64,000 nt of DNA from Cryomorphaceae bacterium (GTDB taxonomy: Bacteria; Bacteroidota; Bacteroidia; Flavobacteriales_D; Sanyastnellaceae): positions 124,001 through 188,000 of the forward strand of contig WGNM01000016.1 of NCBI GenBank assembly GCA_016124575.1, given 5' to 3'. Position 1 is the first letter of the stretch; every line of letters begins with the position of its first letter. The position numbers were made by a program, and so were the translations under genes. The notes under the pieces are model-generated. The model was not told the origin of the DNA. It ran no database searches and was given only the letters and a program-made list of their open reading frames with translations. Shown piece after piece: positions 26,487 to 54,114 of the stretch.

Positions 26487-29400
26487 TTATTTCTGAATTA
26501 CCAGACGCTCAGTCTGAACATCAGAACCAACGTTGATTTTCACAGTGTAAACACCAGAAGCTAGTCCGTTTAGAGACAATACATTCTGCATGTTAGCGCC
26601 AGAAACAGCGATTTGCTCGCTCATTACAAGGCTACCCATACCATTGAAGATATCTACAGTGATGCGATCAACATCAGCAGCGATGTTATTTACATTGATG
26701 TAAACCAATTCACCGTTGTTAGGGTTCGGGTAAAGAGGTTCAGTCGTTACATCAGTAACGTCAAGACGCTCAGCACTTTCTTCATTAACAACTGGAGAAG
26801 CGATAGTACCTTCCATGTTAACAGGTCCGATGATTGACAACAATTCAGCAACACCTGGAAGCGTTACCGCACCGTTTGCGAATTCAGGCTTAACCGTTAC
26901 GCTGTACACAGCTCCTGGGATAAGACCTGGGATAGTGTTCAAGCGGATGAAACGGTTAGAAGAACCACGCAAGTGAGTGATAGGCAATTGGCTACCATCT
27001 GTGATAGAGAATGTCCAAGTCCAATCTACAACACCACATACGAATGGAGTAGCAGCTACGAAATCACCTAGGAAGTGAGGACCGTAGTTCGCTTGGTTGT
27101 CAGACGTACGAAGCTGAGTAGCAGGAACTGGGCTAACCACGATAGAACATGGCTCATCACCTAGGACAGCGATATCTTCGCCATCACCGTTACCATCAGT
27201 AAGGTTCCAAACAGCATCGATAGATACATCGTATGTATCATCCCATCCAAGACCAGCAACGTTAGAAAGCACTACGAAAGTGCTAGCACCGCCGCTTTGG
27301 TAATCGTAAGTGATACCAGAAGTCTGAGAAGTGAAGTGGAAGATGTAATCATCAGAAGATACCCAGTCAGCTTTGAACAAGTTACACAAGCTGTAAGGAC
27401 CTGAACCATAGTCACAACGTGTATCAGGAATAGCCTGAACACAGATGTCAAATGGAGCTGGACCAGAAGTTGCGAAGTATGGAGCCACACGCACAAGGTA
27501 AGTATCACCTGCAGTTAGGTCACCAATGTTCAATACTTCATTGTCTCCTGTGAAAGATACGTCTTCGATATCAACAGGGTTGTTAGAAGCATCTTGAAGC
27601 TCGATCAAAGCATCAAAGTCAGCACCAGTCATTTCGATACGAACACCAGAAGTAGTTGCTACGAAAGAGTACCACAAGTCAAGAGCTGAAGTACGGTAAG
27701 TAGCTTCTGGAGAAGCGATAGTAGCTTCGTTAACGTCACCAGAAAGACCAGCACAAACACCAAGACCATTCACTGGAAGGGCGTAAGCCAATTCAGGAAG
27801 TTCGTTGATACATGGACCAGCTACACAAGAACCATCGTCTAGAGTAGCAGCAGCGTCGTAGTTACAAGCAGTTGGGTCAGTACAACCCAATACTGGACAA
27901 GAACCAGTAGCGCCGAAGTCGAGGTATATAGTAAGAACGTTAAGGTCATCAGCGTTCAATACAGTAAGTGATGCAAATGCAGAACCATTTACTGAAATTT
28001 CAAGTGAACCGCCGTTCCATCCGTCACCGAAAGTATCAGAGATTTCGAATGAGTAACAACCGCTAACAAGACAAAGCGCGAAGTCAGCAGAGAAACCATC
28101 ACCAGAGGCAACGCTTACACCACCACCGTCGAACAATTCCCAAACAATTTCCTCTGGGAAGATACCGTTTACAACTTCTACTTCAACCAGGTTGTCGATA
28201 CAGAAGATACAAGATCCATCATCAACAGTTGCAGCTGCATCGTAGTTTGTAGCACCAGCATCAGTACAACCAAAAATTGCAAGAATACCACAGTATACAT
28301 CGTAGTCAAGAGCAGTAGACAAACCACTAGTACAGCTACCAGTATTATCGCTATCGATTTCAATAGTAATTGCACCAGTAGTTGATTGAACAACTAAACC
28401 TGCAACATCACCATCACCCGAGAACAATTCTGCGCCTGTGTTATCAATACCATCATAAATGGTAATGAAGTCCCAACCGATTTCAAAAGTTCCAGCATTG
28501 AATACAAGAACAACTTCATCACCTGGGTTAGCAGCAACGTACGTGAAATAAGTCAACTCGCTGTTTCCGTAGCAGTAAGTGTAGTTATCTGCAGTAGTTG
28601 GAGCACATGAAGGTACGATACAAGAAGCATCATCAAGAGTAGCAGCTGGGTTGTAGTTAACAGCGTTAACATCAGTACAACCAAGAACAAACTGACAAGC
28701 AAGCTCTGAAATGCTGTAGTTCAAATCAACTGTACCAACTTGACCCTGGTAACCATCAACTTGCAGGTAGTAAGTACCAGCAGGAAGAGCGCCACATGCA
28801 AGGTTTAGCAAAGAAAGCAAACCACCTCCGTTATCATCATCACAAGCTACTTCGTTGAAAGCAGCATCGTAAATAACGAACTGAGTATCAGACCAACCTA
28901 CTGGGTTTACTGTTTCGAAAGAAATTTCAGCATCAGCAGTAGTTGTGAATGTGTACCAGATAGAAGACTGTTCAGCATCACCAAGGAAGTGACAAGAACC
29001 GTTCAAACCTTCGTTCTGACAAGCAGCAGTGTTATCTATAGAGATGGTACCGGCGCCAGAAAGAGTAATTGCACCAGCAGCAAGGTCATTCGCTACAGGG
29101 AATACACAAGTACCATTGTCAGAAGTTGCAGTAGCATCGTAGTTACATGCAGCAGCGTCAGTACAACCAGGGTTGTCAAGGATACCACAGTAAACATCAT
29201 AATCCAAAGCATCACCACCAAAACCATCTTGACAGTTGTTAGAAGTGTCAGAGTCAATTTCAATAGTAACAGCTCCTGTAGTAGAAACTACAACAACACC
29301 AGTTAAATCACCGTCTGTTGAGAAAAGTACAGCACCTGAGTTATCAGTACCATCATAGATGGTAATGAAATCCCATCCTATCTCACCACCACCAGCGTTG

Positions 29401-30452
29401 AAAACAACGATAACTTCATCACCTGGGTTTGCACCAACGTAAGTGAATGTTGTTAATTCATTGTCACCGTAGCAGTAAGTGAAGTTATCAGCAGTTGTTG
29501 GAGCACAAGTAGGAACGATACAAGAAGCATCATCGATAGTTGCAGTCGCATCGTAGTTGATAGCGTTCGCATCAGTACAACCTGCACATGAAACGAATTC
29601 ACATGAAGCATCGTCGATTGTTGCAGCAGCATCGTAGTTACAAGCACCAGCATCAGTACAACCTGCACATGAAACGAATTCACATGTACCATCGTCTAGA
29701 GTTGCAAGTGCATTGTAGTTACAAGCAGCAGCGTCAGTACAACCTTCGATCTCTACAACCACAGGAGGGAAAACACAAGACGGACAAGCCTCTTCGAATC
29801 CAGTCTGAGCTGTGATAGGAGAACCTATACAATCAAAACTACTTACATAGTCAACACGACCTCCCGGTTGTACACCACCAACAAAAACCTGAAGGTTGAT
29901 GTTGTATGTGATCTCACCTGAAGTTGTGAATTGACCAAGTAGAATGCGGTTGTTTGGACCTGATGGAAGAGAAGTTGCAGAAGTTGGAAGCGTGTAAATT
30001 ACAGCATCTTCAGCAACTAAACTAACACCAGCAGCCACGGTACCTACAGAAGGTGTGTATGGATCACCAGGAACAGTCGCTACGGTAGCAACATCGGCAG
30101 CTCCTGGAACTGTATTACAACCAGCTCCAACGGTTACCCATGAATCAGCTTCATACAATGGGAAGAACCCAAAGAAACCGCAGTTAATTTGACTTCCTAG
30201 AACAGAACCAAAACCATCATTGTGGAAACTGGTTGTTGTTGAGATGTCCAATGGGTGACAACCCAAAGTTGCGAAAATCGCCGTAAGCTTATCTGTAGCT
30301 TGGTTCATTTCAGCGTAAAGGCGGTAAGTGGTCGTGCCTGAAGGCTGTGTACCAATTGTCATCGTATAAGGCTCGAGGACAACCTGATTCAACTGTGCCA
30401 CACTCGTGAGAGCAACCCCCACCGCAGCGAAAAACATTAATAGTTTTTTCAT
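26487..30452 (-). CDS. Giant T9SS-secreted Cys-rich repeat protein with CUB-like modules
   Basis: 1321-aa extracellular protein, function unknown, probably adhesive or structural. Seen in order: signal peptide (1-19, ending SVAQ); an N-terminal beta-rich region (20-230); seven copies of a Cys-rich motif (GCTD-x2-A-x-N-Y-x4-A-x-x-D-D-x-S/T-C); two CUB-like modules (each around CAPTTADN...IGWDFITIYDG, ending YDVYCGI); PPC-like beta modules; one DTFGDGWNG module; and a C-terminal T9SS type A sorting domain (about 1245-1321, EPLYPNPNNGE...GLASGVYTVKI...ERLVIQK). T9SS exports the protein across the outer membrane and removes this domain. Cys is almost always TGT and Asn mostly AAC, suggesting codon bias for high expression. 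It lies 75 nt downstream of a related giant gene. Confidence 0.88.
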   Translation of the reverse strand: MKKLLMFFAAVGVALTSVAQLNQVVLEPYTMTIGTQPSGTTTYRLYAEMNQATDKLTAIFATLGCHPLDISTTTSFHNDGFGSVLGSQINCGFFGFFPLYEADSWVTVGAGCNTVPGAADVATVATVPGDPYTPSVGTVAAGVSLVAEDAVIYTLPTSATSLPSGPNNRILLGQFTTSGEITYNINLQVFVGGVQPGGRVDYVSSFDCIGSPITAQTGFEEACPSCVFPPVVVEIEGCTDAAACNYNALATLDDGTCEFVSCAGCTDAGACNYDAAATIDDASCEFVSCAGCTDANAINYDATATIDDASCIVPTCAPTTADNFTYCYGDNELTTFTYVGANPGDEVIVVFNAGGGEIGWDFITIYDGTDNSGAVLFSTDGDLTGVVVVSTTGAVTIEIDSDTSNNCQDGFGGDALDYDVYCGILDNPGCTDAAACNYDATATSDNGTCVFPVANDLAAGAITLSGAGTISIDNTAACQNEGLNGSCHFLGDAEQSSIWYTFTTTADAEISFETVNPVGWSDTQFVIYDAAFNEVACDDDNGGGLLSLLNLACGALPAGTYYLQVDGYQGQVGTVDLNYSISELACQFVLGCTDVNAVNYNPAATLDDASCIVPSCAPTTADNYTYCYGNSELTYFTYVAANPGDEVVLVFNAGTFEIGWDFITIYDGIDNTGAELFSGDGDVAGLVVQSTTGAITIEIDSDNTGSCTSGLSTALDYDVYCGILAIFGCTDAGATNYDAAATVDDGSCIFCIDNLVEVEVVNGIFPEEIVWELFDGGGVSVASGDGFSADFALCLVSGCYSFEISDTFGDGWNGGSLEISVNGSAFASLTVLNADDLNVLTIYLDFGATGSCPVLGCTDPTACNYDAAATLDDGSCVAGPCINELPELAYALPVNGLGVCAGLSGDVNEATIASPEATYRTSALDLWYSFVATTSGVRIEMTGADFDALIELQDASNNPVDIEDVSFTGDNEVLNIGDLTAGDTYLVRVAPYFATSGPAPFDICVQAIPDTRCDYGSGPYSLCNLFKADWVSSDDYIFHFTSQTSGITYDYQSGGASTFVVLSNVAGLGWDDTYDVSIDAVWNLTDGNGDGEDIAVLGDEPCSIVVSPVPATQLRTSDNQANYGPHFLGDFVAATPFVCGVVDWTWTFSITDGSQLPITHLRGSSNRFIRLNTIPGLIPGAVYSVTVKPEFANGAVTLPGVAELLSIIGPVNMEGTIASPVVNEESAERLDVTDVTTEPLYPNPNNGELVYINVNNIAADVDRITVDIFNGMGSLVMSEQIAVSGANMQNVLSLNGLASGVYTVKINVGSDVQTERLVIQK
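27812..29744 (-). repeat. Seven GCTD...DDGSC coding repeats (1321-aa protein)
   Basis: Seven dispersed copies of a roughly 26-residue unit beginning GCTD and ending D-D-x-S/T-C, each followed by a short Cys-bearing spacer. Three copies are adjacent at about 29500-29744; the others separate larger domains. They are similar at DNA level (recurrent GTCAGTACAACC on the + strand), so they could recombine. Confidence 0.85.
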
Positions 30453-30480
30453 AGTGCTAGAATATATAGTTAATGAGCGA

Positions 30481-30519
30481 AAGATTGTCCGGACCCGGAA
30501 TTGAGTCCGGACATCTTTC
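30481..30519 (-). terminator. Long hairpin between the two giant genes
   Basis: Inverted repeat AAAGATTGTCCGGAC / GTCCGGACATCTTT with one bulged base and a 10-nt loop, in the 75-nt gap between the genes. On the minus strand it is followed only by the weak T-run ATCTTTCGC. It may be a partial terminator or an RNA-stabilising element allowing graded read-through into the 1321-aa gene. Confidence 0.6.
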
Positions 30520-30527
30520 TGATTTGG

Positions 30528-33500
30528 TTAGATACAAGTTGTACCGAAGGCACCTAGGAACTGAAGAAGGTCACCAGCGTTGATGATACCGTCTCCGTTC
30601 AAGTCTTCAGGACAAGGGTTAGCAAGATCGAAAGTACAAGACTGATCGTCGATAGACGCAGCAGGATCGTAGTTTACAGCTGTAGGGTAAGTACAACCTG
30701 AACAAGTGTCGTATGTACACGCTTCACAGTCTGCAATGTTTGCAGCTGGATCGTAGTTACAAGCAACAGGCTCAGTACAACCAACAACACACGCACCTGA
30801 ACCTACAGAGAAGTTCACGTTCGCGTTTGCACCACCAGCAACAACACCACTGTTAGTACCGAACAATGTCCAGCTAACTTCACCAGGGAATGTACCAGCA
30901 GTAACGTTCAATGTGTAACATCCGTCAGCAAGACAAAGGATATCAGTTCCAGTTGAGAAACCGTCACCAGACTGAGCGTTGTCAAGGTCACCGCTAGCAA
31001 CGAAAGTTCCGTCGATAGTGAAGATCTCATAAACAGCTCCGTTCCATCCATCACCGAATGAATCGTTCATCGCGAAAGTCACACAGTTGTCGTAACAACA
31101 AGACAAATCTTCGATAGTTGCTGTAGCGTCGTAGTTACAAGCAGCAGCATCAGTACAACCTGCACATGATACGTATTCACAAGAACCGTCATCATCAGTT
31201 GCAGCAGCATCGAAGTTACAAGCACCTGGGTCAGTACAACCACAGATAGCACCTCCGATAGAGAATCCGATGCTAACACCGCCACCGCCAGCAGCGATAA
31301 CGTTTCCTAGTTCGTCAACCAAGCTAAAGCTAGCTTCAGCTACGAACAAACCACCATCGATGATGATGTTGTAACAACCATCCTGAAGACAGATAAGGTC
31401 GAAACCGTTATCAGCACCTAGGAAGTTATCTTCGTCTACAGTGTAAAGTGCACCGTCAAGATCACCAGTAGCTACTACAGCACCTAGACCGTCAGTGATG
31501 GTGTAAACGTTACCGTTCCATCCGTCACCGAATGAGTCAACCATATCCAACTTAAGTGGAGTACCAGGACCACCGCCACAAGTATCAGAGAAGTAGTCAC
31601 AAGAACCATCTTCTACGTTAGCAGCAGCGTTGTAGTTGTATGCAGCAGGGTTAGTACAACCAAATACCACAGGCTCACAAGCGATAGACATGTTGAACAA
31701 ACCGTTATCATCAGTGATAGGGTTAGCATCAATATCTTCAGCACCTACGTAGATGTAGTAAGAAGCACCAAGTACAGAGATGAAAGACACCTCAGCGTCA
31801 TCTTGATCGAAGAAACCACATGAACCGAAGTCAGTAGTTTCAGAAGCGAAACCTGCTGGAGTAGCGTCAACACAAGTAAATCCTGCGATACAGTCACCTT
31901 CCCATACGTTGATTTTAGAATCGATTACAGATCCACAAGTAGAGATTGTAACTAGATCACCAGTACCAGTGTAAGTGTACCAAACACCTGAACCTGGAGT
32001 AGCGTCACAAGCAAGACCAAATGGAGCACCAATAGCCGTTGCACCACCAGTAGAACCAGAGATGTTATCACCACAAGAAACAGTAGCAGCATCAGCACAC
32101 TCGTTCAATGGGTTCACAACACCTGCGTAGTCACAAGAACCATCGTCAGTGTTCGCACCAGCATCATAGTTGTTCGCAGAAGGGTCAGTACAACCGAAGT
32201 ACACACCAAGTACATTCAATTCGTAATCGCCACAAGCCAAAGGCTCAGTAGTGAAGATTGAGAAGAAGTAATCAGTGTTCGGAGTCAACGTCAAGAAATC
32301 GCCGATATCACCAGCACACTGGCCAGTAACAAGACAACCTACGAAATCAACAGGAGCAGCACAGTTACCTGTGTAGAACATCAAACCTACGTTACCACCG
32401 CTTACGTTAGTTACGTCGAAGAAGAAAGTATCGAAGTCAGATGAGTTAAATGAGTACCATACATCGTAAGCAGTTGCGAAACCAGCAGCGAAGTTTGGAG
32501 CTCCAGAAGGACCTGCACAACAAAGAGACTCAGTGATAGTAAGACCAGAAACAACTGGTTGAGCGTTAGCACAATCATCATTTGATGGGAATGCACCACA
32601 GTTAACACAAGCTACATTTAGAGTGAAATCACCACCTGTTGCAAATCCGAATTCAGAAACCAAGATGAAGTAGTCGTTACCTGTAGAAGCGTTGAACGCC
32701 ATTTCAGAAAGGAAGCTACCAGCACCACAACCATCGTCGTTTGCAGCAACACAAACTAAGTTGTTGCAATCAGGAGCACCTAGGTAAACGTGAATTTTAG
32801 TATCAGTAACACCAGTTGAGTTACAAAGGCTCAAGAACACTTGCTCATCAGCATCAGCATTGTAAGAGTACCAAACACCTGGGGTGTCGATATCGATACC
32901 AGAACAAGTAGCACCAATCAAACCTTCGTTATCGGTAGCGTTTTCTAGAGTTCCAGCAACAGACAATCCACAAGTAACAGCTTCTGCTGAACAAACATCG
33001 TTGTTAGCAGGAGGACACAAACATGAACCATCATCGATAGTTGCAGAAGGGTTGTAACCGATACAGTTAGAATCAGTACATCCTGAGAATCCACAAGTAC
33101 CAGTGAAACCGAAGTCTACGTTCAATGAAGCAGGAGCGCCACCAGAACCGTAGTTGTTTCCAAGCTGGTCAGTCAAAGACCAAGAAACTTCACCAGGGAA
33201 AGTACCGCCAGTAACATTGAACACATAACAACCAGGAGCCATACAGAAAGCGTCAGTTCCTACAGTCAAACCGTCGCCAATAGCAGCAGTATCAAGAGTT
33301 CCAGAAGCGATCAAAGCACCACCAGTAGTAGTCATTGAATATGTTGCACCGTTCCATCCGTCACCGAATGAGTCAACCATGTCAACAATCATCAAGATTT
33401 CACCACCAGCACAGAAGATACATGAACCATCGTCGATAGTTGCTGTAGCATCATAGTTTGTAGCCAATGGATCAGTACAACCAGCGCATGAAGTGAATTC

Positions 33501-34679
33501 ACAACCGAAGTCGAAATCTGCTGCAGCGTCGAAGTTACAAGCAAGAGGGTCAGTACAACCAGGAGTACAACCACCGTTTACAACAAGAAGGTCAGTACCA
33601 ATTGAAGCACCGTCACCTGAAGCAGCAGTATCAAGATCACCCGTAAGGATTGTTGAACCACCCTGAGTAAATGTGTAAACAGCGCCGTTCCATCCATCTC
33701 CGAATGAATCGAACATGTTGAAATTGAAACAAGCGTCAGTTAAACACAAAGAGAACGTTCCAACGGCACCGTTAGCGATTAGGGCTCCACCAAGATCAGT
33801 CAACGTCCAGCTAACCTCTGCAGGGAATCCACCACCAGTTACGTTCAAAGAAATACAGTTGTCAAAACAACATGAACCATCGTCGATGGTGTTGTCAACT
33901 TCGTAGTTACAAGCAAGTGCATCAGTACAACCGATACATGAGTAATCACAACCAATGTTGATAGTTGCACTAGCATCGAAGTTACAAGCTGCAGCATCGG
34001 TACAACCTTGACAAGACAAGTACTCACATGAACCATCGTTCGTGTTCGCAGCAGCGTCAAAGTTACAAGCGATAGGATCAGTACATCCAGGAACCGCTAC
34101 AGAGAAAGTAATTGACCATCCTCCAGTTACAGTACCAGCATCACCACCAGCATCATCATAAAGAAAAAGAGTCCAATCACCGTCTGCTACATCACCACCA
34201 AAAGTGCTGAAGAATGTAGCAGCACCAGCAGGAGCCGGTTCAGCATAAACTGCCGGTGCAGGTGCTGGCATACCATCAGCTCCTCCGTTGTTGTACGGAC
34301 GGTAAGAACCTGAAGGGTTTACCGTAAGGTTCATAGCTGTTGCAGCTCCATCAAAGAAAGAGTAGTTAACGTTTACAACGTCAGTTCCACTTCCAGCATC
34401 AGACATAACAATCATTGCATCACCGTTCGGAGCAACCAACATCACGTCGATGTCACTTGGCCAAGTGTGAGAAAGTCCGTTAAGATCAACTTGAACAACA
34501 CCGATAGCCGCAGGGCCACCAGCAACAGTAATTGTAGAAGAGTAAGGCGTAAACGGCCCAGCAGTGGTGCTTACCGAGAAGCCCGCTGCATTAGAGTAAG
34601 TCTGCGCAATTGCAGACCCTGAAAGTAGCATCCCGAGGGAGCAACAGACAGAAAGTAACAACAAATAAGTCTTGTTCAT
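30528..34679 (-). CDS. Giant secreted Cys-rich repeat protein with dockerin-like C-terminal tail
   Basis: 1383-aa exported protein, function unknown. Seen in order: signal peptide (about 1-25, ending AIAQ); an N-terminal proprotein-convertase P-domain-like region (about 30-190, with SDIDVMLVAPNG and DWTLFLYDDAGGDAGTVTGGW); twelve GCTD...DDGSC repeats; four modules containing DSFGDGWNG, three of them near FPGEVSW-like strands; and three PPC-like modules with VWYS/VWYT motifs (about 560-960). It ends with one dockerin-like EF-hand (DLNGDGIINAGDLLQF) and FGTTCI, not a T9SS domain. The same tail type ends the esterase at 10721-11863. Cys codons are almost all TGT. A promoter fits at 34703-34735. 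Confidence 0.87.
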   Translation of the reverse strand: MNKTYLLLLSVCCSLGMLLSGSAIAQTYSNAAGFSVSTTAGPFTPYSSTITVAGGPAAIGVVQVDLNGLSHTWPSDIDVMLVAPNGDAMIVMSDAGSGTDVVNVNYSFFDGAATAMNLTVNPSGSYRPYNNGGADGMPAPAPAVYAEPAPAGAATFFSTFGGDVADGDWTLFLYDDAGGDAGTVTGGWSITFSVAVPGCTDPIACNFDAAANTNDGSCEYLSCQGCTDAAACNFDASATINIGCDYSCIGCTDALACNYEVDNTIDDGSCCFDNCISLNVTGGGFPAEVSWTLTDLGGALIANGAVGTFSLCLTDACFNFNMFDSFGDGWNGAVYTFTQGGSTILTGDLDTAASGDGASIGTDLLVVNGGCTPGCTDPLACNFDAAADFDFGCEFTSCAGCTDPLATNYDATATIDDGSCIFCAGGEILMIVDMVDSFGDGWNGATYSMTTTGGALIASGTLDTAAIGDGLTVGTDAFCMAPGCYVFNVTGGTFPGEVSWSLTDQLGNNYGSGGAPASLNVDFGFTGTCGFSGCTDSNCIGYNPSATIDDGSCLCPPANNDVCSAEAVTCGLSVAGTLENATDNEGLIGATCSGIDIDTPGVWYSYNADADEQVFLSLCNSTGVTDTKIHVYLGAPDCNNLVCVAANDDGCGAGSFLSEMAFNASTGNDYFILVSEFGFATGGDFTLNVACVNCGAFPSNDDCANAQPVVSGLTITESLCCAGPSGAPNFAAGFATAYDVWYSFNSSDFDTFFFDVTNVSGGNVGLMFYTGNCAAPVDFVGCLVTGQCAGDIGDFLTLTPNTDYFFSIFTTEPLACGDYELNVLGVYFGCTDPSANNYDAGANTDDGSCDYAGVVNPLNECADAATVSCGDNISGSTGGATAIGAPFGLACDATPGSGVWYTYTGTGDLVTISTCGSVIDSKINVWEGDCIAGFTCVDATPAGFASETTDFGSCGFFDQDDAEVSFISVLGASYYIYVGAEDIDANPITDDNGLFNMSIACEPVVFGCTNPAAYNYNAAANVEDGSCDYFSDTCGGGPGTPLKLDMVDSFGDGWNGNVYTITDGLGAVVATGDLDGALYTVDEDNFLGADNGFDLICLQDGCYNIIIDGGLFVAEASFSLVDELGNVIAAGGGGVSIGFSIGGAICGCTDPGACNFDAAATDDDGSCEYVSCAGCTDAAACNYDATATIEDLSCCYDNCVTFAMNDSFGDGWNGAVYEIFTIDGTFVASGDLDNAQSGDGFSTGTDILCLADGCYTLNVTAGTFPGEVSWTLFGTNSGVVAGGANANVNFSVGSGACVVGCTEPVACNYDPAANIADCEACTYDTCSGCTYPTAVNYDPAASIDDQSCTFDLANPCPEDLNGDGIINAGDLLQFLGAFGTTCI
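30637..34088 (-). repeat. Twelve GCTD...DDGSC coding repeats (1383-aa protein)
   Basis: Twelve copies of the same 25-27-residue Cys-rich unit found in the neighbouring protein. Some are degenerate: the second lacks the DDGSC end (INIGCDY), the fourth ends DFDFGC, the sixth has lost the usual ACNY (SNCIGYN), and the eleventh ends ADCEAC. Copies occur singly or in blocks of three between larger beta modules. Confidence 0.85.
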
Positions 34680-34702
34680 CTGTTTTGGTTTTGGTTAATA
34701 CA

Positions 34703-34735
34703 CAAATTTATCGGGGGTCATCCCCCCTCCTCAAA
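34703..34735 (-). promoter_or_regulatory. Bacteroidota-type promoter with palindromic spacer
   Basis: On the minus strand TTTG (34735-34732) and TAAATTTG (34710-34703) are 21 nt apart, matching the -33/-7 consensus. The start codon of the 1383-aa gene follows after 23 nt. The spacer carries GGGGG-TCAT-CCCCC (+ strand 34713-34726), a candidate operator. Confidence 0.65.
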
Positions 34736-34919
34736 TCCGGCAAGCCGGTCCTAAGCTTTTAAATGTATTCGGTTATCTGCTTCACGAACTGCGTGCCACA
34801 GGACCGAAAACGAACTAAGTGACTGAAAACCTGATAATTAGCTTCAGATCCATTTCTTCTATTTTTTCCCAAATTTGGAAACTCCCTCTCAATTTGAATC
34901 GTTTGTTAGTATAGTCAGG

Positions 34920-34938
34920 TGTAGGAGGCTGTCCTACA
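34920..34938. other. Hairpin TGTAGGA-N5-TCCTACA
   Basis: Perfect 7-bp inverted repeat with a 5-nt loop, followed on the + strand by TTTTACTTTT. No + strand gene precedes it. On the minus strand it lies about 140 nt past the end of the XrtF operon and lacks a T-run. It may protect the 3' end of that transcript. Confidence 0.4.
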
Positions 34939-35075
34939 TTTTACTTTTAGCACCCTAAATTTACCAAACATTCGCATACTTCACCAAGAAAATTGAAAAA
35001 AAAACGACGAACGGTTTAACCGTTATTAAACAAAAACATGCCATTTACAGGTAGAATCAGCCCTTTCAGCTAAAA

Positions 35076-35558
35076 TCACCACATTTCTGAGTGCCAACTT
35101 TTCTTGAATGTGACCAGAAAATTGTGCTTTAGAGCCCCTAAAGTTTGAACTGTGGTATCAAAAACAAGCGTCTCATCTGTTACAACTCCTCCTTTTCTTT
35201 TCGCCCAGAAGTCATGAATCGGATCACAAACGACACTTTGTCCATTCATATAACAAACAAGCATGCGATTAAACAGGTCCAAGCCATACTTTTCGCCGAT
35301 CTCTTTCATTACTCGAACAGAGTCGTCGATAGAGCACCCAGATGCAGGAGCAGTTTCTTCATTCACTGATAAGACAATAAATCGATTGTAAAGAATCGAC
35401 GATGCCGCTTGCAGTGGTTGTCCGTGAGCCTTCCACCCCCCCGTAAACCGTGTCAAAAGTTCTTGAATCTGAGCAACTTCATCTGTGATCAGCTCGCGAT
35501 TTGACTGGTAGATCCAGATACGGGCATCATCTGGTAAACTATTCATGTCCATTTTCAT
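35076..35558 (-). CDS. Conserved flavobacterial protein (often misnamed ABC transporter ATPase)
   Basis: 160 aa, cytoplasmic, function unknown. Relatives in Bacteroidota are commonly annotated 'ABC transporter ATPase', but there is no Walker A or B motif or ABC signature here. Seen: the family-like N-terminus DARIWIYQSNRELITDEV, the middle block ASGCSIDDSVRVMKEIGEKYGLDLFNR and the Cys of SGCS. The start overlaps the stop of the XrtF-associated gene (ATGA), so it is translated with the exosortase operon and may be functionally linked to it. Confidence 0.78.
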   Translation of the reverse strand: MKMDMNSLPDDARIWIYQSNRELITDEVAQIQELLTRFTGGWKAHGQPLQAASSILYNRFIVLSVNEETAPASGCSIDDSVRVMKEIGEKYGLDLFNRMLVCYMNGQSVVCDPIHDFWAKRKGGVVTDETLVFDTTVQTLGALKHNFLVTFKKSWHSEMW

Positions 35559-36094
35559 GCAGTATTATTGTTTTTCAAAAAGAACAGCGCAGGAAGATAC
35601 AATACAATTATGGGCATCGGACTTTGCAAAAAGCCAAGCAGCTCTCTTCCGACATTGTACATCGCTATTTCATGCTTCCAAAAAAAGTACATTCCGAAAA
35701 ACAATGCTACCGTGGCGATCATACCTATATATATGTATCTCAAGAAAACCATTAACGCTTCTCTTCTGAGAATGTTCTTAATCGCAAATCGATTGAGAAC
35801 AAAATAGAACCCAACCAGGATTATGGCAATACCGTATTTGATAACAGCTAATTGTTTCGATGTAAAATTGGCTAGTTGGTTTATTGTAGAGTGACTATAG
35901 TAATAATCGTATGGTGCGTTATAGTCCATTTTCGACAACTCTTTCAGACGATCATCAGGAGAGAGCATGTTGTAATTCGGGACGTATGCAATGTGATCAA
36001 TAAACCAATTGATATTGACCTTGAGCCATTCTTGAAAGAAGCCAACCGCAATAAAGATGAGCACTACAATCACTCTTGGAATCCACTCACGCAT
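35555..36094 (-). CDS. Exosortase F system-associated membrane protein
   Basis: 179-aa inner-membrane protein recognised as the partner normally encoded next to exosortase XrtF in Flavobacteriia. Seen: an N-terminal membrane segment (residues 6-22), a soluble loop rich in Tyr and Asn (residues 35-75, NAPYDYYYSHSTINQL), then three further membrane segments (about 84-103, 120-140, 155-173). It overlaps xrtF by 8 nt and the following gene by 4 nt. The function is unknown; it may assist substrate recognition or transfer. Confidence 0.85.
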   Translation of the reverse strand: MREWIPRVIVVLIFIAVGFFQEWLKVNINWFIDHIAYVPNYNMLSPDDRLKELSKMDYNAPYDYYYSHSTINQLANFTSKQLAVIKYGIAIILVGFYFVLNRFAIKNILRREALMVFLRYIYIGMIATVALFFGMYFFWKHEIAMYNVGRELLGFLQSPMPIIVLYLPALFFLKNNNTA

Positions 36095-36626
36095 TCGCTA
36101 CTTTTTTCAGAGGAGAGAATTTCTGAATCCATACATACCACAAACCAATCACTGCGCTGTAAACCAGTATAGTGAACGTGTAGTCGTGATTAAAATCGAG
36201 CCAACTCGGATTCACGTCGACGATGATAGCCAAGGCAGCTACCCGGAGAATATTCAAAACATGAATGGCCATTACCCCTATCGGGATGAACCAAGCTTTG
36301 TGCTTGATTGGCCCGGGGAATGCAATTATAAAAATGGCAAAAAGTGCAAAGAGCACTATGCCGTCGCAAGGAGCGCCGACGGTTACACCGAGTGAATCTT
36401 CAATTCCGACATGGGTTTTCCAGACAGGATCGTTGTAGGCAATAAGTGAATATCCGAGAAACGACAAGAAGATTTCTACCCCACGAACAATATTGTCGAC
36501 GATCCACTCATCGAAATTGGTTTTTCCTCTGAGCACAAACTCGTACAGGATGTACCAAAATATATAGGCAGTAGTCACAAAAACAAGAAATCTCAACAAA
36601 GGATTCTCACGGAACTTTAGACTCAT
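36087..36626 (-). CDS. xrtF: Exosortase family protein XrtF
   Basis: Membrane transpeptidase-like cysteine protease of the exosortase/archaeosortase family, expected to cut a C-terminal sorting signal and attach the new end to an envelope molecule. The protein is 179 aa with about five membrane segments. The catalytic triad is visible: Cys87 in GAPCDG, Arg128 in NILRVAA and His147 in FNHDYT. The short length matches the XrtF subfamily of Flavobacteriia. It overlaps the substrate gene upstream by 4 nt (ATGA) and the XrtF-associated gene downstream by 8 nt. It is divergent from the glycan cluster, which fits the general link between exosortases and exopolysaccharide loci. Confidence 0.92.
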   Translation of the reverse strand: MSLKFRENPLLRFLVFVTTAYIFWYILYEFVLRGKTNFDEWIVDNIVRGVEIFLSFLGYSLIAYNDPVWKTHVGIEDSLGVTVGAPCDGIVLFALFAIFIIAFPGPIKHKAWFIPIGVMAIHVLNILRVAALAIIVDVNPSWLDFNHDYTFTILVYSAVIGLWYVWIQKFSPLKKVANA

Positions 36627-36844
36627 TCTCCTTTTTTGTAGAGCTGGTATGCTTTTTTACCACCTAGTGCAATACCTGCGGCGACTAAAAGGCTAACACC
36701 TCCATCAATAGGACATGGCGGGCCAAAAGGAGGGCCACATGGTGTGCCTCCGCTATCTGGGAAAGGGGCGGTTTGAGCAAAACTGCTGATAGGCAATAGA
36801 AACAGGGCTACAAACGCCAAACTTAAAAATACTCTTTTCATCAT
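36623..36844 (-). CDS. PID-CTERM sorting-domain protein, predicted XrtF substrate
   Basis: 73-aa exported mini-protein. Seen: signal peptide (1-24, ending SSFAQ), a mature stretch of only about 20 residues rich in Pro, Gly and two Cys (residues 36 and 44), the motif PIDGG at 45-49, a hydrophobic helix (50-62) and a basic tail (KKAYQLYKKGE). This tripartite end is the PID-CTERM sorting signal. The start at 36844 is chosen because it begins the signal peptide (a second ATG follows at 36841); the longer in-frame extension to 37045 would run into the divergent kinase gene. It overlaps xrtF by 4 nt, so enzyme and substrate are co-translated. Confidence 0.85.
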   Translation of the reverse strand: MMKRVFLSLAFVALFLLPISSFAQTAPFPDSGGTPCGPPFGPPCPIDGGVSLLVAAGIALGGKKAYQLYKKGE

Positions 36845-36864
36845 GACAACATGCCTTTGAGGTT

Positions 36865-36872
36865 CAAATGTA
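36865..36872 (-). promoter_or_regulatory. -7 box of the XrtF operon promoter
   Basis: TACATTTG on the minus strand matches TAnnTTTG and lies 20 nt before the ATG at 36844. No convincing -33 TTTG was found at the expected distance. Confidence 0.5.
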
Positions 36873-36933
36873 CAAAAATCGAATGAGTGGTATACATCCG
36901 AAAGAATATTGTTCCCTCTTCGTTTTGCATTGC

Positions 36934-36941
36934 TATATTTG
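36934..36941 (+). promoter_or_regulatory. -7 box of the glycan-cluster promoter
   Basis: TATATTTG matches TAnnTTTG; a TTG at 36909-36911 lies 22 nt upstream. It sits 12 nt before the ATG at 36954, which argues for that start over the in-frame ATG at 36909. Together with the box at 36865 it makes a divergent control region for exosortase and glycan genes. Confidence 0.55.
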
Positions 36942-36953
36942 TGCCGCACAGAA

Positions 36954-39368
36954 ATGCATATGGCCGAACCGAAAGCCTCCATATTTGATCCCGAAGACCT
37001 GCGGCCAATATTTAAGTTTATTGGTAAAAACTGGGTTTTGCTCATGCTTTTGCCCGCGTTGGCCTATTTCATCGCGAATTTTTACACCCACAGGTTAGCC
37101 GATATTTACGCCGCTCAAGCAGAGATACTGTTAAAATCTCAAGAAACCTACGACTACCAGTCGCAGATATACAGCAATTTGGGGTATTACTCATTGCTGG
37201 CAGACGTCACCAACCAGCAGCGCGTAATTTCTTCGTACGACATCGTTTCGAAATCGATGAAGAAGCTGAATTTCAATATCAGCTACTATTTGGTAGGGCG
37301 AATACGCACTTCACAAGTCGACAAAATAGATGCGCTAGAAATTGAAGCCGATGTTGACCGCTTTGCCCCCTATTTGCGAAACTTGCCCATCAACATAAAA
37401 GTACTAGACCTCGACCACTACTCTTTTTCATACGAGATAAACGGGAAAACCATCCAGAAAGAGTACTCCTTCGGTGAAGCAGTTGAAGAAATCGATTACG
37501 CCTTAAGAATCGATAAAACAGCGCTTGTAAACGAAGGGACAATTGAAAAAATTAAGGAACAAGACTTCCAAATCCGCGTTCATACCAATGATTACCTCGT
37601 AAACAAGTACAAGAGCAACTTCTTTATTAAGAACGTTGAGTATACGAGCATCTTAAATCTTCAAGTGCAAAATGAGTTGCCGGAAAGGGCGCGCCGGTTT
37701 TTAGACACCCTTTCGAACGTATATATCACGTACACACAAGAGACTAGAATCTCTGTGAACGAAAATACGCAACGTTATATCGACAAGCAGCTCAGTGAGT
37801 TGACGTTTATTTTGGACTCCTTGGAGTATATGCTGGAAGACTTCAAAGACAAAAATCGCATTTTGGATTTGAATAAAGAGCAGCAAGAATATTTTCGGAG
37901 TATGGTGGAGCTTGATAGCGACAAGCGCAAGTTGGAATTGCGACTTGAGTCGATGCGCGCCATGGAAGCATTTCTATCAAAAGGTTTGGAGGAAGCCGCC
38001 TTGCCCCCCTCATTTTACATGTTCGAAGAAGATTTGATTCTGCAGGAGCAGGTGAACCAACTTTTCAACCAGAAAGTTGAACGCAGTCAGAAGCTATTGA
38101 ATTACAAAGACGGTCACGTAGAGATTACCCGATTGGACTCTTTGATCAATACAGTTAAGCTTGGCATTTATAAGTATACCCGCGACACCAAAGACGCTGT
38201 TTTATCGAAGATGCGCGACACAGATGCTCAGATAAACAAATTGGAGTACAAGCTGCAGCAGATACCGAAATCGCAGCGCGACATCTTGGGAATTGACCGC
38301 AAATTGAAGGTCAACGAAAGTTTGTACATCTTCCTCTTGGAGAAAAAAGCCAGCACCGTAATCGCGCGGGCAGCAATACTTCCAGAAGCAAGCTTGGTTG
38401 AGGAATCTCGCTCCCTTGGAGTTGTCGGCCCAAACAAAGAACGCACAAAATATTTCGCCATTGGCGGAGGATTGATATTCGCCGTTTTGATAGGTTTGGT
38501 TCGTTTGATATTCTTTGAGCGCATAGAAAATACCCGAGAGTTGAAAAGCATCACCAACATGCCTGTTATTGGTGGAGTGCCCAATTACAATGAGATCAAC
38601 ACCGACCCGATTGTCATTTTGAGTTCACCGCGATCAAATGTCGCAGAAGCTTTTCGCTCAGTAAGAACCAACCTTCAATACCTCCTTCAAGACGATGGCC
38701 CGAAAGTTATTTTGGTAACATCGCTGCACCCAGGAGAAGGTAAAACATTCACATCCAGCAATTTAGCTGCTGTTCTTGCAAAAGCGGGAAAGAAAGTAAT
38801 CCTTCTCGATTTCGACATGCACAAACCGAAGGTGCACAAGACCTTCCAGTTGGAGAACGTATCGGGAGTATCTACCTACCTCATCAACAAAACAGACCTG
38901 TCATCATGTACCATACAATCTCAGGTCGAGAATCTTGAGATCATCACAGCAGGTCCCGTTCCACCCAACGCCTCTGAGCTAGTTTTAAGTGAGCGCGTAG
39001 GAGAAATGATACACGACCTGAAGCAGAAATACGACTTTTTGATTGTCGACACACCACCTTTGATGCTGATTAGTGACTCTCTTGTGCTTATGAAGGAAGT
39101 AGACACCGGAATATTCGTTATGAATACCGAGAAAGCTTCGAAACAAGGGGTACGCTATTTAGAGGAAGTGCTTGGACAAAATAACCTCGAGCACGTATCG
39201 ATATTACTGAACAACATCAAGCAAAAGCGCTGGAAGTACTATTATGGCAAGTATGCGTACCGATACGGGTATGGTTACGGGTATGGTTACGGGTATGGTT
39301 ACGGCTATGGATACGGCCAAGGCTATGGAGGGGAGAAAAAAGAAAAAGGCGGCAAGTCAAAAAAATAG
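36954..39368 (+). CDS. Wzc-type polysaccharide co-polymerase / BY-kinase with Tyr-Gly tail
   Basis: Inner-membrane tyrosine autokinase controlling polymer length and export of surface polysaccharide. The protein is 804 aa from 36954 (or two residues shorter from 36960). Seen: N-terminal membrane segment (about 20-40), Wzz-like periplasmic domain, long coiled-coil region (about 250-470), second membrane segment (about 500-520), and a BY-kinase domain with Walker A GEGKTFTSS, Walker A' ILLDFDMHKPK and Walker B FLIVDTPPLM. The C-terminus holds a run of YG pairs with more than ten Tyr, the expected autophosphorylation cluster, encoded by 12-bp repeats. It leads the glycan cluster and faces the XrtF operon. 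Confidence 0.93.
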   Translation: MHMAEPKASIFDPEDLRPIFKFIGKNWVLLMLLPALAYFIANFYTHRLADIYAAQAEILLKSQETYDYQSQIYSNLGYYSLLADVTNQQRVISSYDIVSKSMKKLNFNISYYLVGRIRTSQVDKIDALEIEADVDRFAPYLRNLPINIKVLDLDHYSFSYEINGKTIQKEYSFGEAVEEIDYALRIDKTALVNEGTIEKIKEQDFQIRVHTNDYLVNKYKSNFFIKNVEYTSILNLQVQNELPERARRFLDTLSNVYITYTQETRISVNENTQRYIDKQLSELTFILDSLEYMLEDFKDKNRILDLNKEQQEYFRSMVELDSDKRKLELRLESMRAMEAFLSKGLEEAALPPSFYMFEEDLILQEQVNQLFNQKVERSQKLLNYKDGHVEITRLDSLINTVKLGIYKYTRDTKDAVLSKMRDTDAQINKLEYKLQQIPKSQRDILGIDRKLKVNESLYIFLLEKKASTVIARAAILPEASLVEESRSLGVVGPNKERTKYFAIGGGLIFAVLIGLVRLIFFERIENTRELKSITNMPVIGGVPNYNEINTDPIVILSSPRSNVAEAFRSVRTNLQYLLQDDGPKVILVTSLHPGEGKTFTSSNLAAVLAKAGKKVILLDFDMHKPKVHKTFQLENVSGVSTYLINKTDLSSCTIQSQVENLEIITAGPVPPNASELVLSERVGEMIHDLKQKYDFLIVDTPPLMLISDSLVLMKEVDTGIFVMNTEKASKQGVRYLEEVLGQNNLEHVSILLNNIKQKRWKYYYGKYAYRYGYGYGYGYGYGYGYGYGQGYGGEKKEKGGKSKK
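39264..39311 (+). repeat. 12-bp tandem repeat encoding the kinase Tyr-Gly tail
   Basis: Three identical units TACGGGTATGGT and a fourth with two changes, in frame, each encoding YGYG. Copy-number change would lengthen or shorten the tyrosine cluster without a frameshift. Confidence 0.9.
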
Positions 39369-39389
39369 ACAAAACCTTCAACAATCACT

Positions 39390-40028
39390 ATGGTTTCACT
39401 TATAATCACCACGTACAATTACGCGCAATTTGTTGAACGTGCGATACGAAGTGGATTGGATCAATCGCTTTCGCGCGATCAATATGAGATCATTGTTGTA
39501 AACGACGCCAGCACCGATCTTACCGAGCAGGTACTTGCCAACTACGAAGAAGAAGTCCGCATCTTTAATTTAACAGAAAACGTTGGTCTCGCTGCAGCTC
39601 GGAATTTCGGCATACGCAAAGCGCGCGGACAATTCATTGTTTTTTTGGATGCCGACGACTACATACATCGCGATCTTTTGCGCGTAGAGAAGTTATTTCT
39701 CGAGGAGAACAATACCCTCGACGCCGTTTCAACGGATTATTATTTGGTAGATGAACGCGGGAAACACCTGCAGCATGTTAACGCCGAACAAGAACCAATT
39801 GCTTGTGGTGTAATGTTCAGGAAAGACTTTTTGTTCAATATTGGTTTGTATGACGAAAAATTTCGGGCCAGAGAGGAGGAAGACTTGCGAATTAGATGGA
39901 CCCATAAATACAGTATTTACAACATTATTTTACCACTTTACCGATACAGGATGCACGACTTGAACCTCACAAAAGACCAACTTGCGATGGATCAAGGAGC
40001 TGAGCGATTAAAAAACAAACACAAGTAA
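39390..40028 (+). CDS. Glycosyltransferase family 2
   Basis: Inverting GT-A glycosyltransferase, cytoplasmic or membrane-associated, 212 aa, at the short end of the family. Seen: N-terminal VSLIITTYNYAQFVERAI, EIIVVNDASTDLT (nucleotide binding), GLAAARNFGIRKARG and the D-x-D-type FLDADDYI, followed by the acceptor-side REEEDL motif. Donor and acceptor are not predictable. It follows wzc by 21 nt. Confidence 0.9.
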   Translation: MVSLIITTYNYAQFVERAIRSGLDQSLSRDQYEIIVVNDASTDLTEQVLANYEEEVRIFNLTENVGLAAARNFGIRKARGQFIVFLDADDYIHRDLLRVEKLFLEENNTLDAVSTDYYLVDERGKHLQHVNAEQEPIACGVMFRKDFLFNIGLYDEKFRAREEEDLRIRWTHKYSIYNIILPLYRYRMHDLNLTKDQLAMDQGAERLKNKHK

Positions 40029-40030
40029 GC

Positions 40031-40636
40031 ATGAATGTCTACAAATCTGAACGCATTTATCTTCGACCTCTTGATGTGAATGACGTAACAGAAAGGTATT
40101 TAGGGTGGCTGCGCGATGGAGATGTGAAAGCCTTTTTGGAAGTTGACGGCAACACATTGACCTTAGATGATATTCGTGAGTACATCGCAGAAGGACCACG
40201 CACTGGTTCTTATTTTATGTATGCGATTTGTTTGAACAACACCGACATACACATAGGCAACGTAAAAGTCGGGCCTATAAACAAAAAACATCTCATATCT
40301 GACCTACCTGTTGTAATCGGCGACAAAGAATTTTGGGGACAAGGTATTGCCGTTGAGGCCATTAAACTTGGAAATGAGATAGCTTTTAAAGAGCACGGAA
40401 TCAGAAAGTTACACGGACAAATCTACCGAAACAACATAGGCAGTATTAAAGCCTATTGCCGAGGAGGTTGGATTGTAGAAGGACTAATTAGAGGTCGGTA
40501 TTTGGTTGATGGCGAATCAATGGATCAAGTTATTGTGAGTTGCAACAACCCCGATTTTTTTCCATCTGAACACGACCAATACACAATAGATCATTTGATT
40601 GAGCTTCAAGAGTTAAGAAAAGCTAGCATTTCATGA
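40031..40636 (+). CDS. GNAT-family N-acetyltransferase, sugar-modifying (PseH/RimJ-like)
   Basis: Acetyl-CoA-dependent N-acyltransferase of 201 aa. Seen: SERIYLRPLDVNDV (RimJ/RimL-like start), HIGNVKVGPI, the acetyl-CoA pyrophosphate loop GDKEFWGQGIAVEAI and the C-terminal GIRKLHGQIYRNNIGSIKAYCRGGW. Context (next to SpsF-like, aminotransferase, SDR and NeuB-like genes) suggests it acetylates an amino-sugar on the way to a nonulosonic acid, as PseH does. It shares ATGA with the next gene. Confidence 0.82.
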   Translation: MNVYKSERIYLRPLDVNDVTERYLGWLRDGDVKAFLEVDGNTLTLDDIREYIAEGPRTGSYFMYAICLNNTDIHIGNVKVGPINKKHLISDLPVVIGDKEFWGQGIAVEAIKLGNEIAFKEHGIRKLHGQIYRNNIGSIKAYCRGGWIVEGLIRGRYLVDGESMDQVIVSCNNPDFFPSEHDQYTIDHLIELQELRKASIS

Positions 40637-41388
40637 CCATTGCCATACTACAAGCCCGCATGGGATCGAGCAGGCTACCTGGAAAAGTTCTTCGAGATTT
40701 TCAGGGCAATACGATTTTGGGTCATTTAATTTCTCGGTTACGACCTTCGCAAACGGTTGATCATTTCGTAGTGGCAACTACATTGAATGCTGAAGACGAC
40801 GCCATAGAAGCATGGTGTAAGCTGAACAACGTTGCTTGTTATAGGGGCAGCGACTGGGATGTATTGGATCGTTTTTGGAACGCTGCAAACAGTTTTTCTA
40901 ACGCTCCTGATACGATAGTCCGCATTTGTTGCGACAACCCCTTGCACTCATACAAAGTGCTCGATTTCGTAGTTACAGAATTCCAAAAGGCTGGAACCAC
41001 CTATTTCTCGAACTCGAATCAAGAGCCCGAATATGTAGAAGACGGCTTTGATGTAGAAGTATTTACATATGCCGCACTGCAAGAAGCCCAAGAAAAAGCT
41101 ACCTTGATGAGCGAGCGCGAGCATGTTTGTCCGTACATCAAAAAGCACTTTCCATGCGCATGGAAAAAAGCCGACCCCGACTATATGTTCAAACTTTCTG
41201 TGGACACAGAGAACGATCTTGCTGCTGTTTCACGGATATTTGAAGAACTAAAAGACATACAAGATTTTGGCATCCACGAAGTGACCAAATTACTGAAGCA
41301 GAAACCAGAAATATTGGAATTGAATCGTGAAAGCGAGATCAATTCCGGGTTTAAGAAATCAATCAATGAAGACCGAAAAGTGAAATGA
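40633..41388 (+). CDS. SpsF-like cytidylyltransferase-family protein
   Basis: Nucleotidyltransferase-fold protein of 251 aa of the SpsF/CMP-KDO-synthetase-like group found with NeuB-type genes. Seen: AILQARMGSSRLPGKVL with the conserved R-x-x-S-x-R-L-P-G-K, VVATTLNAEDDAI and the ICCDNPL block (metal/substrate Asp). It probably activates a keto-sugar with CTP, but SpsF proteins are poorly characterised. It overlaps the GNAT gene (ATGA) and the aminotransferase gene by 4 nt. Confidence 0.82.
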   Translation: MTIAILQARMGSSRLPGKVLRDFQGNTILGHLISRLRPSQTVDHFVVATTLNAEDDAIEAWCKLNNVACYRGSDWDVLDRFWNAANSFSNAPDTIVRICCDNPLHSYKVLDFVVTEFQKAGTTYFSNSNQEPEYVEDGFDVEVFTYAALQEAQEKATLMSEREHVCPYIKKHFPCAWKKADPDYMFKLSVDTENDLAAVSRIFEELKDIQDFGIHEVTKLLKQKPEILELNRESEINSGFKKSINEDRKVK

Positions 41389-42728
41389 GCACGACAAGAA
41401 CACTTCCGCATATTGACCATTTCGAGAAGAGCGACGAATACCGCCGCGTAATTCACAACCTCATTCCCGGAGGGGCGCATACCTATTCGAAAGGCGACGA
41501 TCAATTCCCTGTGCATTCGCCGGCTGCTATCACCCACGGTAAGGGAGCCTATTGTTGGGATGTAGACGGAAACAAATTCCTCGACACCTTGATGGGATTG
41601 ACATCTGTTTCTTTGGGACATGCCTACGAGCCCGTCATTGCTCGGGTTCGCGAAGAATTGGAGCGTGGATCGAATTTTTCTCGTCCATCAGTGCTTGAGC
41701 GCGAGATGGCAGAGCGTTTTTTGGCTTTGGTGCCGCAGCACGACATGATCAAGTATGCGAAAAACGGATCAGTGGTGACCACCGCTGCCATTAAATTGGC
41801 AAGAGCTTACACAGGAAGAACTCTGATTGCTCGTCCGGCAGAGCACCCCTTCTACTCATACGACGATTGGTTTATAGGCTCTACAGCATGTGATTTCGGC
41901 GTACCGCGGGAGATCAAGAACATGACAGTCATGTACAAACAAGACGACTTAGCCGATTTGGAGCGCTTGTTCAACGAATACCCTGGCCAGGTTGCATGTG
42001 TGATAAGTGAGCCAGAGAAGTGGATACCGCTTGAAGACGACTTTTATCAGAAAGCCATAAAGCTTGCTCATGACCACGGCGTGTTGTGGATCATGGACGA
42101 GATGATTACCGGATTTAAGACCGACTATCCGGGAAGCATAAAAAAATTCAACGCCGAGCCCGACATGGCAACATGGGGAAAAGGAATTGCAAATGGATTT
42201 TCATTTTGTGCCCTGACGGGAAAGAAAGAGATCATGGAGTTGGGCGGTATAAACCGTGAAGGAAAGCCAAAACTCTTTTTGGTTAGCACCACTCACGGAG
42301 GAGAAACACATGCCATTGCTGCAGGCTTAGCGACCATGACCGTTTTCGAAAACGAACCCGTGATAGCACACAACCACAAAATTGGCGACCATTTTATTTC
42401 GGGAGCAAAACAACTCATTGAAAAACATGGCTTGCAAGACATTTTGAAGCTTACCGGATTTAACTGGAGTGTTGGTTTGGCAGTGATGAATCGCGCAGGG
42501 CAGGCCGACATGGATTTGAGAACCCTTTTCATGCAAGAAATGATTCAACGCGGGATTTTGTACCAAGGCATTTTATCGCCGTGTTATTCTCATACCGTAG
42601 AAGATATCGATTGGATGCTTGCAGCATTTGATGAAAGTTGTGACGTATTGAATCGCGGATTGGAAGACGGGGTGCATAAACACCTTGTTGGTCCGTCGAT
42701 AAAACCTGTATTTAGAAAATTCAATTAA
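41385..42728 (+). CDS. Class III PLP aminotransferase (glutamate-1-semialdehyde-aminotransferase-like)
   Basis: PLP-dependent aminotransferase/aminomutase of 447 aa. Seen: the GGAHTYSKG N-terminal motif, KNGSVVTTAAIKLARAYTGR (PLP phosphate region), IMDEMITGFKTDY (PLP-binding Asp) and WGKGIANGFSF with the Schiff-base Lys. It resembles HemL, but the glycan context and the neighbouring SpsF-like and NeuB-like genes argue for action on a keto-sugar. It overlaps both neighbours (4 nt and TAATG). Confidence 0.85.
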   Translation: MSTTRTLPHIDHFEKSDEYRRVIHNLIPGGAHTYSKGDDQFPVHSPAAITHGKGAYCWDVDGNKFLDTLMGLTSVSLGHAYEPVIARVREELERGSNFSRPSVLEREMAERFLALVPQHDMIKYAKNGSVVTTAAIKLARAYTGRTLIARPAEHPFYSYDDWFIGSTACDFGVPREIKNMTVMYKQDDLADLERLFNEYPGQVACVISEPEKWIPLEDDFYQKAIKLAHDHGVLWIMDEMITGFKTDYPGSIKKFNAEPDMATWGKGIANGFSFCALTGKKEIMELGGINREGKPKLFLVSTTHGGETHAIAAGLATMTVFENEPVIAHNHKIGDHFISGAKQLIEKHGLQDILKLTGFNWSVGLAVMNRAGQADMDLRTLFMQEMIQRGILYQGILSPCYSHTVEDIDWMLAAFDESCDVLNRGLEDGVHKHLVGPSIKPVFRKFN

Positions 42729-43552: not shown

Positions 43553-43562
43553 TACCAGCACT

Positions 43563-48732: not shown

Positions 48733-48799
48733 TGTGATTTTTCCTTAACTTTCAGACACAGCAGGTTGTTGACCTCAACCAAACTAACTCTTGAAGATA

Positions 48800-54088: not shown

Positions 54089-54093
54089 ATTTG
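54086..54093 (+). promoter_or_regulatory. Possible internal -7 box before the second NeuB-like gene
   Basis: TAAATTTG matches TAnnTTTG and overlaps the asnB stop, 22 nt before the ATG at 54115. A TTTTTG upstream is too close (12 nt) to be a standard -33 element. Confidence 0.3.
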
Positions 54094-54114
54094 CAACCAC
54101 GAAAAACACACAAC

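Follow-up and report, generated by a model that had tools for sequence, protein, structure and literature searches.

Exosortase X (XrtX) and the PID-CTERM signal are already named NCBIfam families, and the literature search turned up neither cleavage nor linkage nor phenotype for any XrtX; among the exosortase papers since 2019 in the matches listed, none treats XrtX by name. For a related pair, deletion of xrtF or of its partner gene causes Flavobacterium johnsoniae to lose surface colonization and biofilm formation, as stated in the available part of the report (PMC10936215), and the targets of XrtF are described as not yet known in the accessible portion of another paper (PMC12188702). An exosortase transpeptidase function, in which the cut protein is passed to an acceptor, was proposed for EpsH in the part of the paper available to us (PMC1569441), and the accessible portions of the exosortase papers cited here name no acceptor of a bacterial exosortase. 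A two-Cys mini-peptide core, PID-CTERM and the motif CWPPPC were not found in the literature searched, with subscription papers mostly outside its reach.

The window analyzed here is a stretch of 64,000 nucleotides from a Cryomorphaceae bacterium (contig WGNM01000016.1), the genome of which has a size of 3.68 Mb and is rated 100% complete. A sequence-only reading of this DNA described an operon of four overlapping genes. All four are present on the minus strand, with overlaps of 4, 8 and 4 bases, although the fourth gene is not a specific part of the system. The features of the locus are:

36623..36844, minus strand: PID-CTERM mini-protein gene, 73 aa (NF046080, 38.9 bits, cut-off 26; omega 0.035 against the relative L212)
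36776..36844, minus strand: predicted signal peptide, residues 1-23 (from the sequence, judged by eye)
36713..36775, minus strand: predicted mature core, residues 24-44, 21 aa with two Cys (from the sequence; identical in L212)
36626..36712, minus strand: PID-CTERM tripartite signal, residues 45-73, consisting of PIDGG, a hydrophobic stretch and a basic tail (NF046080 over residues 45-67)
36087..36626, minus strand: exosortase X gene (xrtX), 179 aa, with Cys87, Arg128 and His147 (NF046081, 185.5 bits, cut-off 170; conservation)
35555..36094, minus strand: XrtX-associated membrane partner, 179 aa, all-helical model (NF046082, 39.1 bits, below the cut-off of 75; recurrence across loci; pLDDT 90.6)
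35076..35558, minus strand: 160-aa protein, a syntenic neighbor (present in the order with and without XrtX)
36865..36872, minus strand: TAnnTTTG box, 28 nt before the mini-protein gene (from the sequence; same position in L212)
36960..39368, plus strand: Wzc-type chain-length tyrosine kinase, divergent, first gene of a polysaccharide cluster (TIGR01007, 179.5 bits, cut-off 108.05; Wzz and AAA_31)

The enzyme was initially labeled exosortase F, a name that had to be replaced because the curated cut-offs identify it as XrtX (185.5 bits against 170 for NF046081) and rule out XrtF (81.5 bits against 90 for TIGR04128). It also exceeds the cut-off of the exosortase/archaeosortase superfamily (TIGR04178, 55.8 bits, cut-off 23) and stays below that of the EpsH-type exosortases (PF09721, 11.9 bits, gathering score 25.7). 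The residues Cys87, Arg128 and His147 are as claimed, being kept in 100, 101 and 101 of 101 XrtX sequences, respectively, and the XrtX of L212 is 92% identical to the window enzyme. No solved structure was found for XrtX by sequence at E 1.

The 73-aa PID-CTERM mini-protein itself was confirmed by its NF046080 score. The longest frame of the first gene encodes 140 aa (37045-36623), and the start at 36844, which gives 73 aa, is the one that opens a signal-peptide-like stretch; signal cleavage sites throughout were set by rule or by eye rather than with a trained predictor. Residues 24-44 read QTAPFPDSGGTPCGPPFGPPC and are followed by PIDGG (residues 45-49), the hydrophobic stretch and the basic tail. 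Comparison with L212 gave eight synonymous and one non-synonymous difference (omega 0.035, for a very short gene), and the sole amino-acid change is at residue 6, within the signal peptide, so that the mature peptides are identical. The mini-protein gene is under purifying selection. The TAnnTTTG box 5' of the gene is presumably a Bacteroidota -7 type promoter element. A scan for promoters and terminators gave a result near chance level, and an Rfam search of window positions 30000-45000 returned no match.

What is new here is that the mini-substrate is widespread in the class. In a sample of 395 genomes of the class, XrtX was found over the cut-off in 101, and a strict core filter could read 78 of the 101 loci, with at least ten of the 23 dropped loci showing a mini-protein by a looser rule. 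The predicted exported core in these 78 loci has a median length of 22 residues (range 8-33) and consists of 38% Pro and 19% Gly. Exactly two Cys occur in 75 cores, none in two and four in one, and 69 of the 78 genes are located no more than 100 nt from xrtX and in the same orientation. The tiny product rich in Pro and Gly with two Cys, as it had been read from this one window, is a recurrent feature across class loci. Among 80 named loci, a mini-protein with a Cys pair is found just upstream of xrtX in 64, a count that required a Cys pair and is therefore silent on Cys frequency (a different filter gave 61). A CWPPPC loop is present in 54 of the 78 cores and is retained where the PID motif is changed to PVNGG or PINNG. 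In a table built from lists copied by hand, a degenerate DNA pattern for CWPPPC occurs in 76 of the 123 class genomes with a strong XrtX (138 bits or more) vs. 16 of the 272 others, and the reversed pattern, used as a control, in 11 of 395. The subgroup of the window has a longer loop before PIDGG (e.g., CGGPFGPAC or CDGPFGPVC), and the CWPPPC pattern had no match in 15 sampled genomes of its order, that of the window included.

Three further observations concern these searches. A PID-CTERM match at G188:C1:2167132-2167203 falls within an open frame of 995 codons, and thus not every protein with the signal need be small. An 88-codon frame around position 1345 of L042 (minus strand) has QGFPCPDPDEPCDPDDVNV before PFDGG in the genome G381, which matches the XrtX model weakly at best (E 5.3e-18); other exosortases of Bacteroidota may have mini-substrates too. 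Seven MAG records titled Chryseobacterium gleum (L217, L220, L221, L222, L238, L240, and L252) have XrtX loci like those of uncultured Flavobacteriales, and this label looks doubtful.

The claim of a single substrate was upheld, as the window's genome contains one PID-CTERM match even at E 10. In the class sample, a PID-CTERM match occurs in 183 genomes at E 0.01 and in 158 over the cut-off. According to tables built from hand-copied lists, such a match is found in 115 of the 123 strong XrtX genomes vs. 68 of the 272 others, and in 60 of these 68 the XrtX model has a weaker match, probably to another exosortase. XrtX occurs in 32 of 60 genomes sampled from the order, and PID-CTERM over the cut-off was found in 25 of the 32 and in 0 of the other 28, one of which has a sub-threshold hit in a frame of 1434 codons.

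Genomes with the exosortase and without any PID-CTERM, the case that the sequence-only reading had set against its own claim, do occur by the PID-CTERM model, in part because variants are missed. In the class, eight of the 123 strong XrtX genomes have no match to the model; four of these carry a variant that the model missed, and of the remaining four, three have a completeness of 86% or less. In the order, the match is absent from seven of the 32 XrtX genomes, three of which have a variant by profile. When the 15 XrtX genomes missed by the PID-CTERM model across the two samples were re-examined with a purpose-made mini-protein profile, seven were found to carry the mini-protein. The profile did not find a mini-substrate in G430, G437, G439, and G340 (98-99% complete) or in G148, G153, and G122 (86, 67, and 65% complete), and G400 has a small Cys-rich protein directly upstream of xrtX. 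The profile left five of the 15, each at least 98% complete, without a mini-substrate, and in one of these five a Cys-rich protein takes its place. G437 and G439 keep XrtX together with its partner; in these two genomes, which belong to the window's own family, the pair (loci L300 and L301) is located away from Wzc. A small protein with five or more Cys replaces the two-Cys mini-protein at L259:2973-3194, L270:9756-9980, L239:9649-9936, and L303:4594-4917.

The third gene had been described as a membrane partner, which its position and profile match support, although its score misses the NF046082 cut-off (39.1 bits against 75), as does that of its L212 relative (46.3 bits). Relatives of the partner were found in 85 of the 101 class loci and in 79 of the 80 named loci. 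Its predicted model is all-helical (pLDDT 90.6) and had no match in the PDB at E 0.001 or better; the best Z of 7.3 from a second look is not telling for a helical bundle. The fourth gene had been counted as another partner, and this part of the description was abandoned. It is a core gene found in 54 of the 60 order genomes (30 of the 32 with XrtX and 24 of the 28 without), which rules it out as a specific part of the system. It follows the partner within the close clade (36 of the 80 named loci within 4.5 kb, 33 on the same strand) and was found in only four of the 101 class loci. Searches at E 1 placed the protein in no NCBIfam or Pfam family and gave no solved structure by sequence, and its predicted model (pLDDT 96.1) had no structure match at E 0.001. 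Similar proteins are annotated as 'ABC transporter ATPase'.

In most loci, xrtX and a Wzc-type gene are divergent, and the gene neighborhoods suggest surface polysaccharide. A Wzc-type gene occurs in 71 of the 101 class loci, in 65 of them on the opposite strand, and lies within 4.5 kb on the opposite strand in 63 of the 80 named loci. In the window, Wzc is the first gene of a long cluster, which also contains glycosyltransferase, NeuB, cytidylyltransferase-like, aminotransferase, flippase and hexapeptide-transferase genes. The cluster, at 39390-63737, includes two NeuB-type genes (43524-44615 and 54091-54822), two cytidylyltransferase-like genes, a weak QueC-like hit and glutamine amidotransferase domains, a gene content that suggests synthesis of a nonulosonate-type sugar; a protein with a T9SS tail is also encoded inside it (48791-50488). 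In the order, a Wzc match of at least 430 bits was found in 37 of 60 genomes, comprising 30 of the 32 XrtX-positive genomes and seven XrtX-negative ones, and the two other XrtX genomes have shorter matches at contig ends. A strict tie between Wzc and XrtX is ruled out by the XrtX-negative genomes. All seven come from one family, of which eight genomes were sampled, and carry the same Wzc subclass, and the XrtX profile found no exosortase in the stretches read around their Wzc genes. The polysaccharide machine thus does not need XrtX.

A large protein is encoded in 52 of the 101 class loci, most often just upstream, and a T9SS type A sorting domain was detected at E 0.01 in 41 of the 41 tails scanned from this family of 54 members. 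The protein is missing between Wzc and the mini-protein gene in the window and was not found elsewhere in its genome with one divergent query, a result that shows little. Two large secreted proteins are encoded downstream of the operon, one (30528-34679) containing Cys-rich, CTDPxACNYDxxAxxDDGSC-like repeats and lacking a T9SS tail by Pfam, the other (26487-30452) with a C-terminal T9SS sorting domain.

Outside the class, 20 XrtX loci (5.5 to 8 kb) contained no PID-CTERM by the rule used and no match to the partner, Wzc or fourth-gene queries. One to seven PID-CTERM matches are present elsewhere in 20 of 21 such genomes. The cores, read in 15 of the 20 loci, have 11-16 residues, typically QPGLPxxPxQA, and are Cys-free in all 15. 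The divergent neighbor of xrtX is a Wza-type export protein in both loci scanned. Very small substrates and polysaccharide genes thus recur with XrtX in and outside the class, and the Cys loop and the adjacent, mostly one-to-one pairing are marks of the class.

From the genes, families, conservation, selection and linkage to Wzc and the partner, all of which are computed, we infer a course of events, with its two cleavages, disulfide, transfer, acceptor and role. XrtX and PID-CTERM would form a unit with one dedicated mini-substrate, the peptide of which is cut and joined to an envelope or polysaccharide acceptor and serves polysaccharide or surface assembly; we give this reading a probability of about 0.5. 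The 73-aa precursor would be exported by Sec and trimmed by signal peptidase, and XrtX, probably helped by the membrane partner, would then cut at or near PIDGG by means of Cys87, Arg128, and His147. The released peptide of about 21-26 residues, rich in Pro and Gly, is probably closed by a Cys-Cys loop, and its new C-terminus would be joined to an amine of an envelope lipid or of a glycan handled by the Wzc system. Both the cut near PIDGG and the transfer to an acceptor are drawn by analogy with the transpeptidase model of EpsH. A peptide of about 21 residues can hardly act as a scaffold, and the end product may be a small peptide anchor or cap. This is our first choice, followed by a signal, an uncut regulator and a Cys-lipidated peptide. 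Points against it are the genomes at least 98% complete that keep XrtX without a detectable mini-substrate, the Wzc subclass of the XrtX-negative family, the missing T9SS neighbor in the window's locus and the different loop in the window's genome.

The small size would also suit a signal or a regulator. Signal peptidase and XrtX might release a Pro-rich, disulfide-looped peptide as a secreted signal, with control of the divergent polysaccharide cluster as one output. The product of about 20 residues, the one adjacent processing enzyme and the intergenic region shared by the mini-protein gene and the divergent Wzc gene are consistent with this possibility. Signals usually differ between close relatives, whereas the core of the mini-peptide is widely conserved, and no receptor or sensor gene was seen in the recurrent clusters around the 101 XrtX loci, which are partly named; we consider a signal unlikely. 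The mini-protein could also remain intact in the membrane as a small bitopic protein and regulate XrtX, Wzc or the partner, its CTERM-like appearance reflecting a membrane anchor only. L53, A56, G57, G61, and K64, which lie in the membrane segment and tail, equal the core in conservation, a point in favor of such a regulator, but in the order PID-CTERM exceeds its cut-off only together with XrtX, and the pairing in the class is also what an enzyme and its substrate predict, which makes an uncut regulator improbable. It is still harder to credit that a lipid is attached to one of the two Cys, the proposal made for MYXO-CTERM proteins, before XrtX cuts to yield a tiny lipopeptide: all 42 aligned mini-proteins share the first Cys, 74 of the 78 cores place a Cys two or three residues ahead of PID, and MYXO-CTERM cleavage needs a conserved Cys according to the available part of that report, but the substrates of XrtX genomes outside the class are Cys-free in 15 of 15 and myxosortase is a CPBP-type protease, an enzyme class other than that of XrtX (PMC11980579).

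The usual logic might even be reversed, with the glycan or glycolipid as the cargo and the peptide as its label. XrtX would then use minimal precursors, with Cys-free cores of 11-16 residues in some lineages and Cys-loop cores of about 22 residues in the class, to cap or anchor exopolysaccharide, and the PID-CTERM mini-proteins would be tags put on sugars instead of proteins to be sorted. We regard this version as doubtful. If the peptide does tag a glycan, a new kind of peptide-sugar link in the envelope of Bacteroidota would follow. For finding an exosortase acceptor by mass spectrometry, one adjacent substrate whose core has about 21 residues offers a very simple case.

Among the described systems, MYXO-CTERM/myxosortase resembles the window pair in having a CTERM with a conserved Cys near the cut and differs in its enzyme class and in its dozens of substrates per genome, as far as the accessible text describes them (PMC11980579). 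The PEP-CTERM/EpsH system shares the tripartite C-terminal signal, the Cys/Arg/His enzyme and a location among exopolysaccharide genes, according to the available part of its description (PMC1569441), whereas the window enzyme stays below the Pfam EpsH gathering score (11.9 of 25.7) and its only substrate is a mini-peptide with little Ser and Thr. With the F. johnsoniae XrtF (TIGR04128), the likeness is in the exosortase family and the adjacent partner gene, but the window enzyme falls below the XrtF cut-off (81.5 of 90). The closest system is XrtX/PID-CTERM (NF046081, NF046080, and NF046082), for which the window enzyme and signal are over the cut-offs and the gene order is as in relatives, while the window partner is below that of NF046082. 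Genomes of this class mostly have a single substrate, usually encoded next to xrtX and containing two Cys, whereas outside the class there are one to seven matches per genome, none near xrtX in the loci read and Cys-free in the 15 read. The window pair is a member of this named family, and the original observation holds once the enzyme is renamed and the fourth gene is left out.
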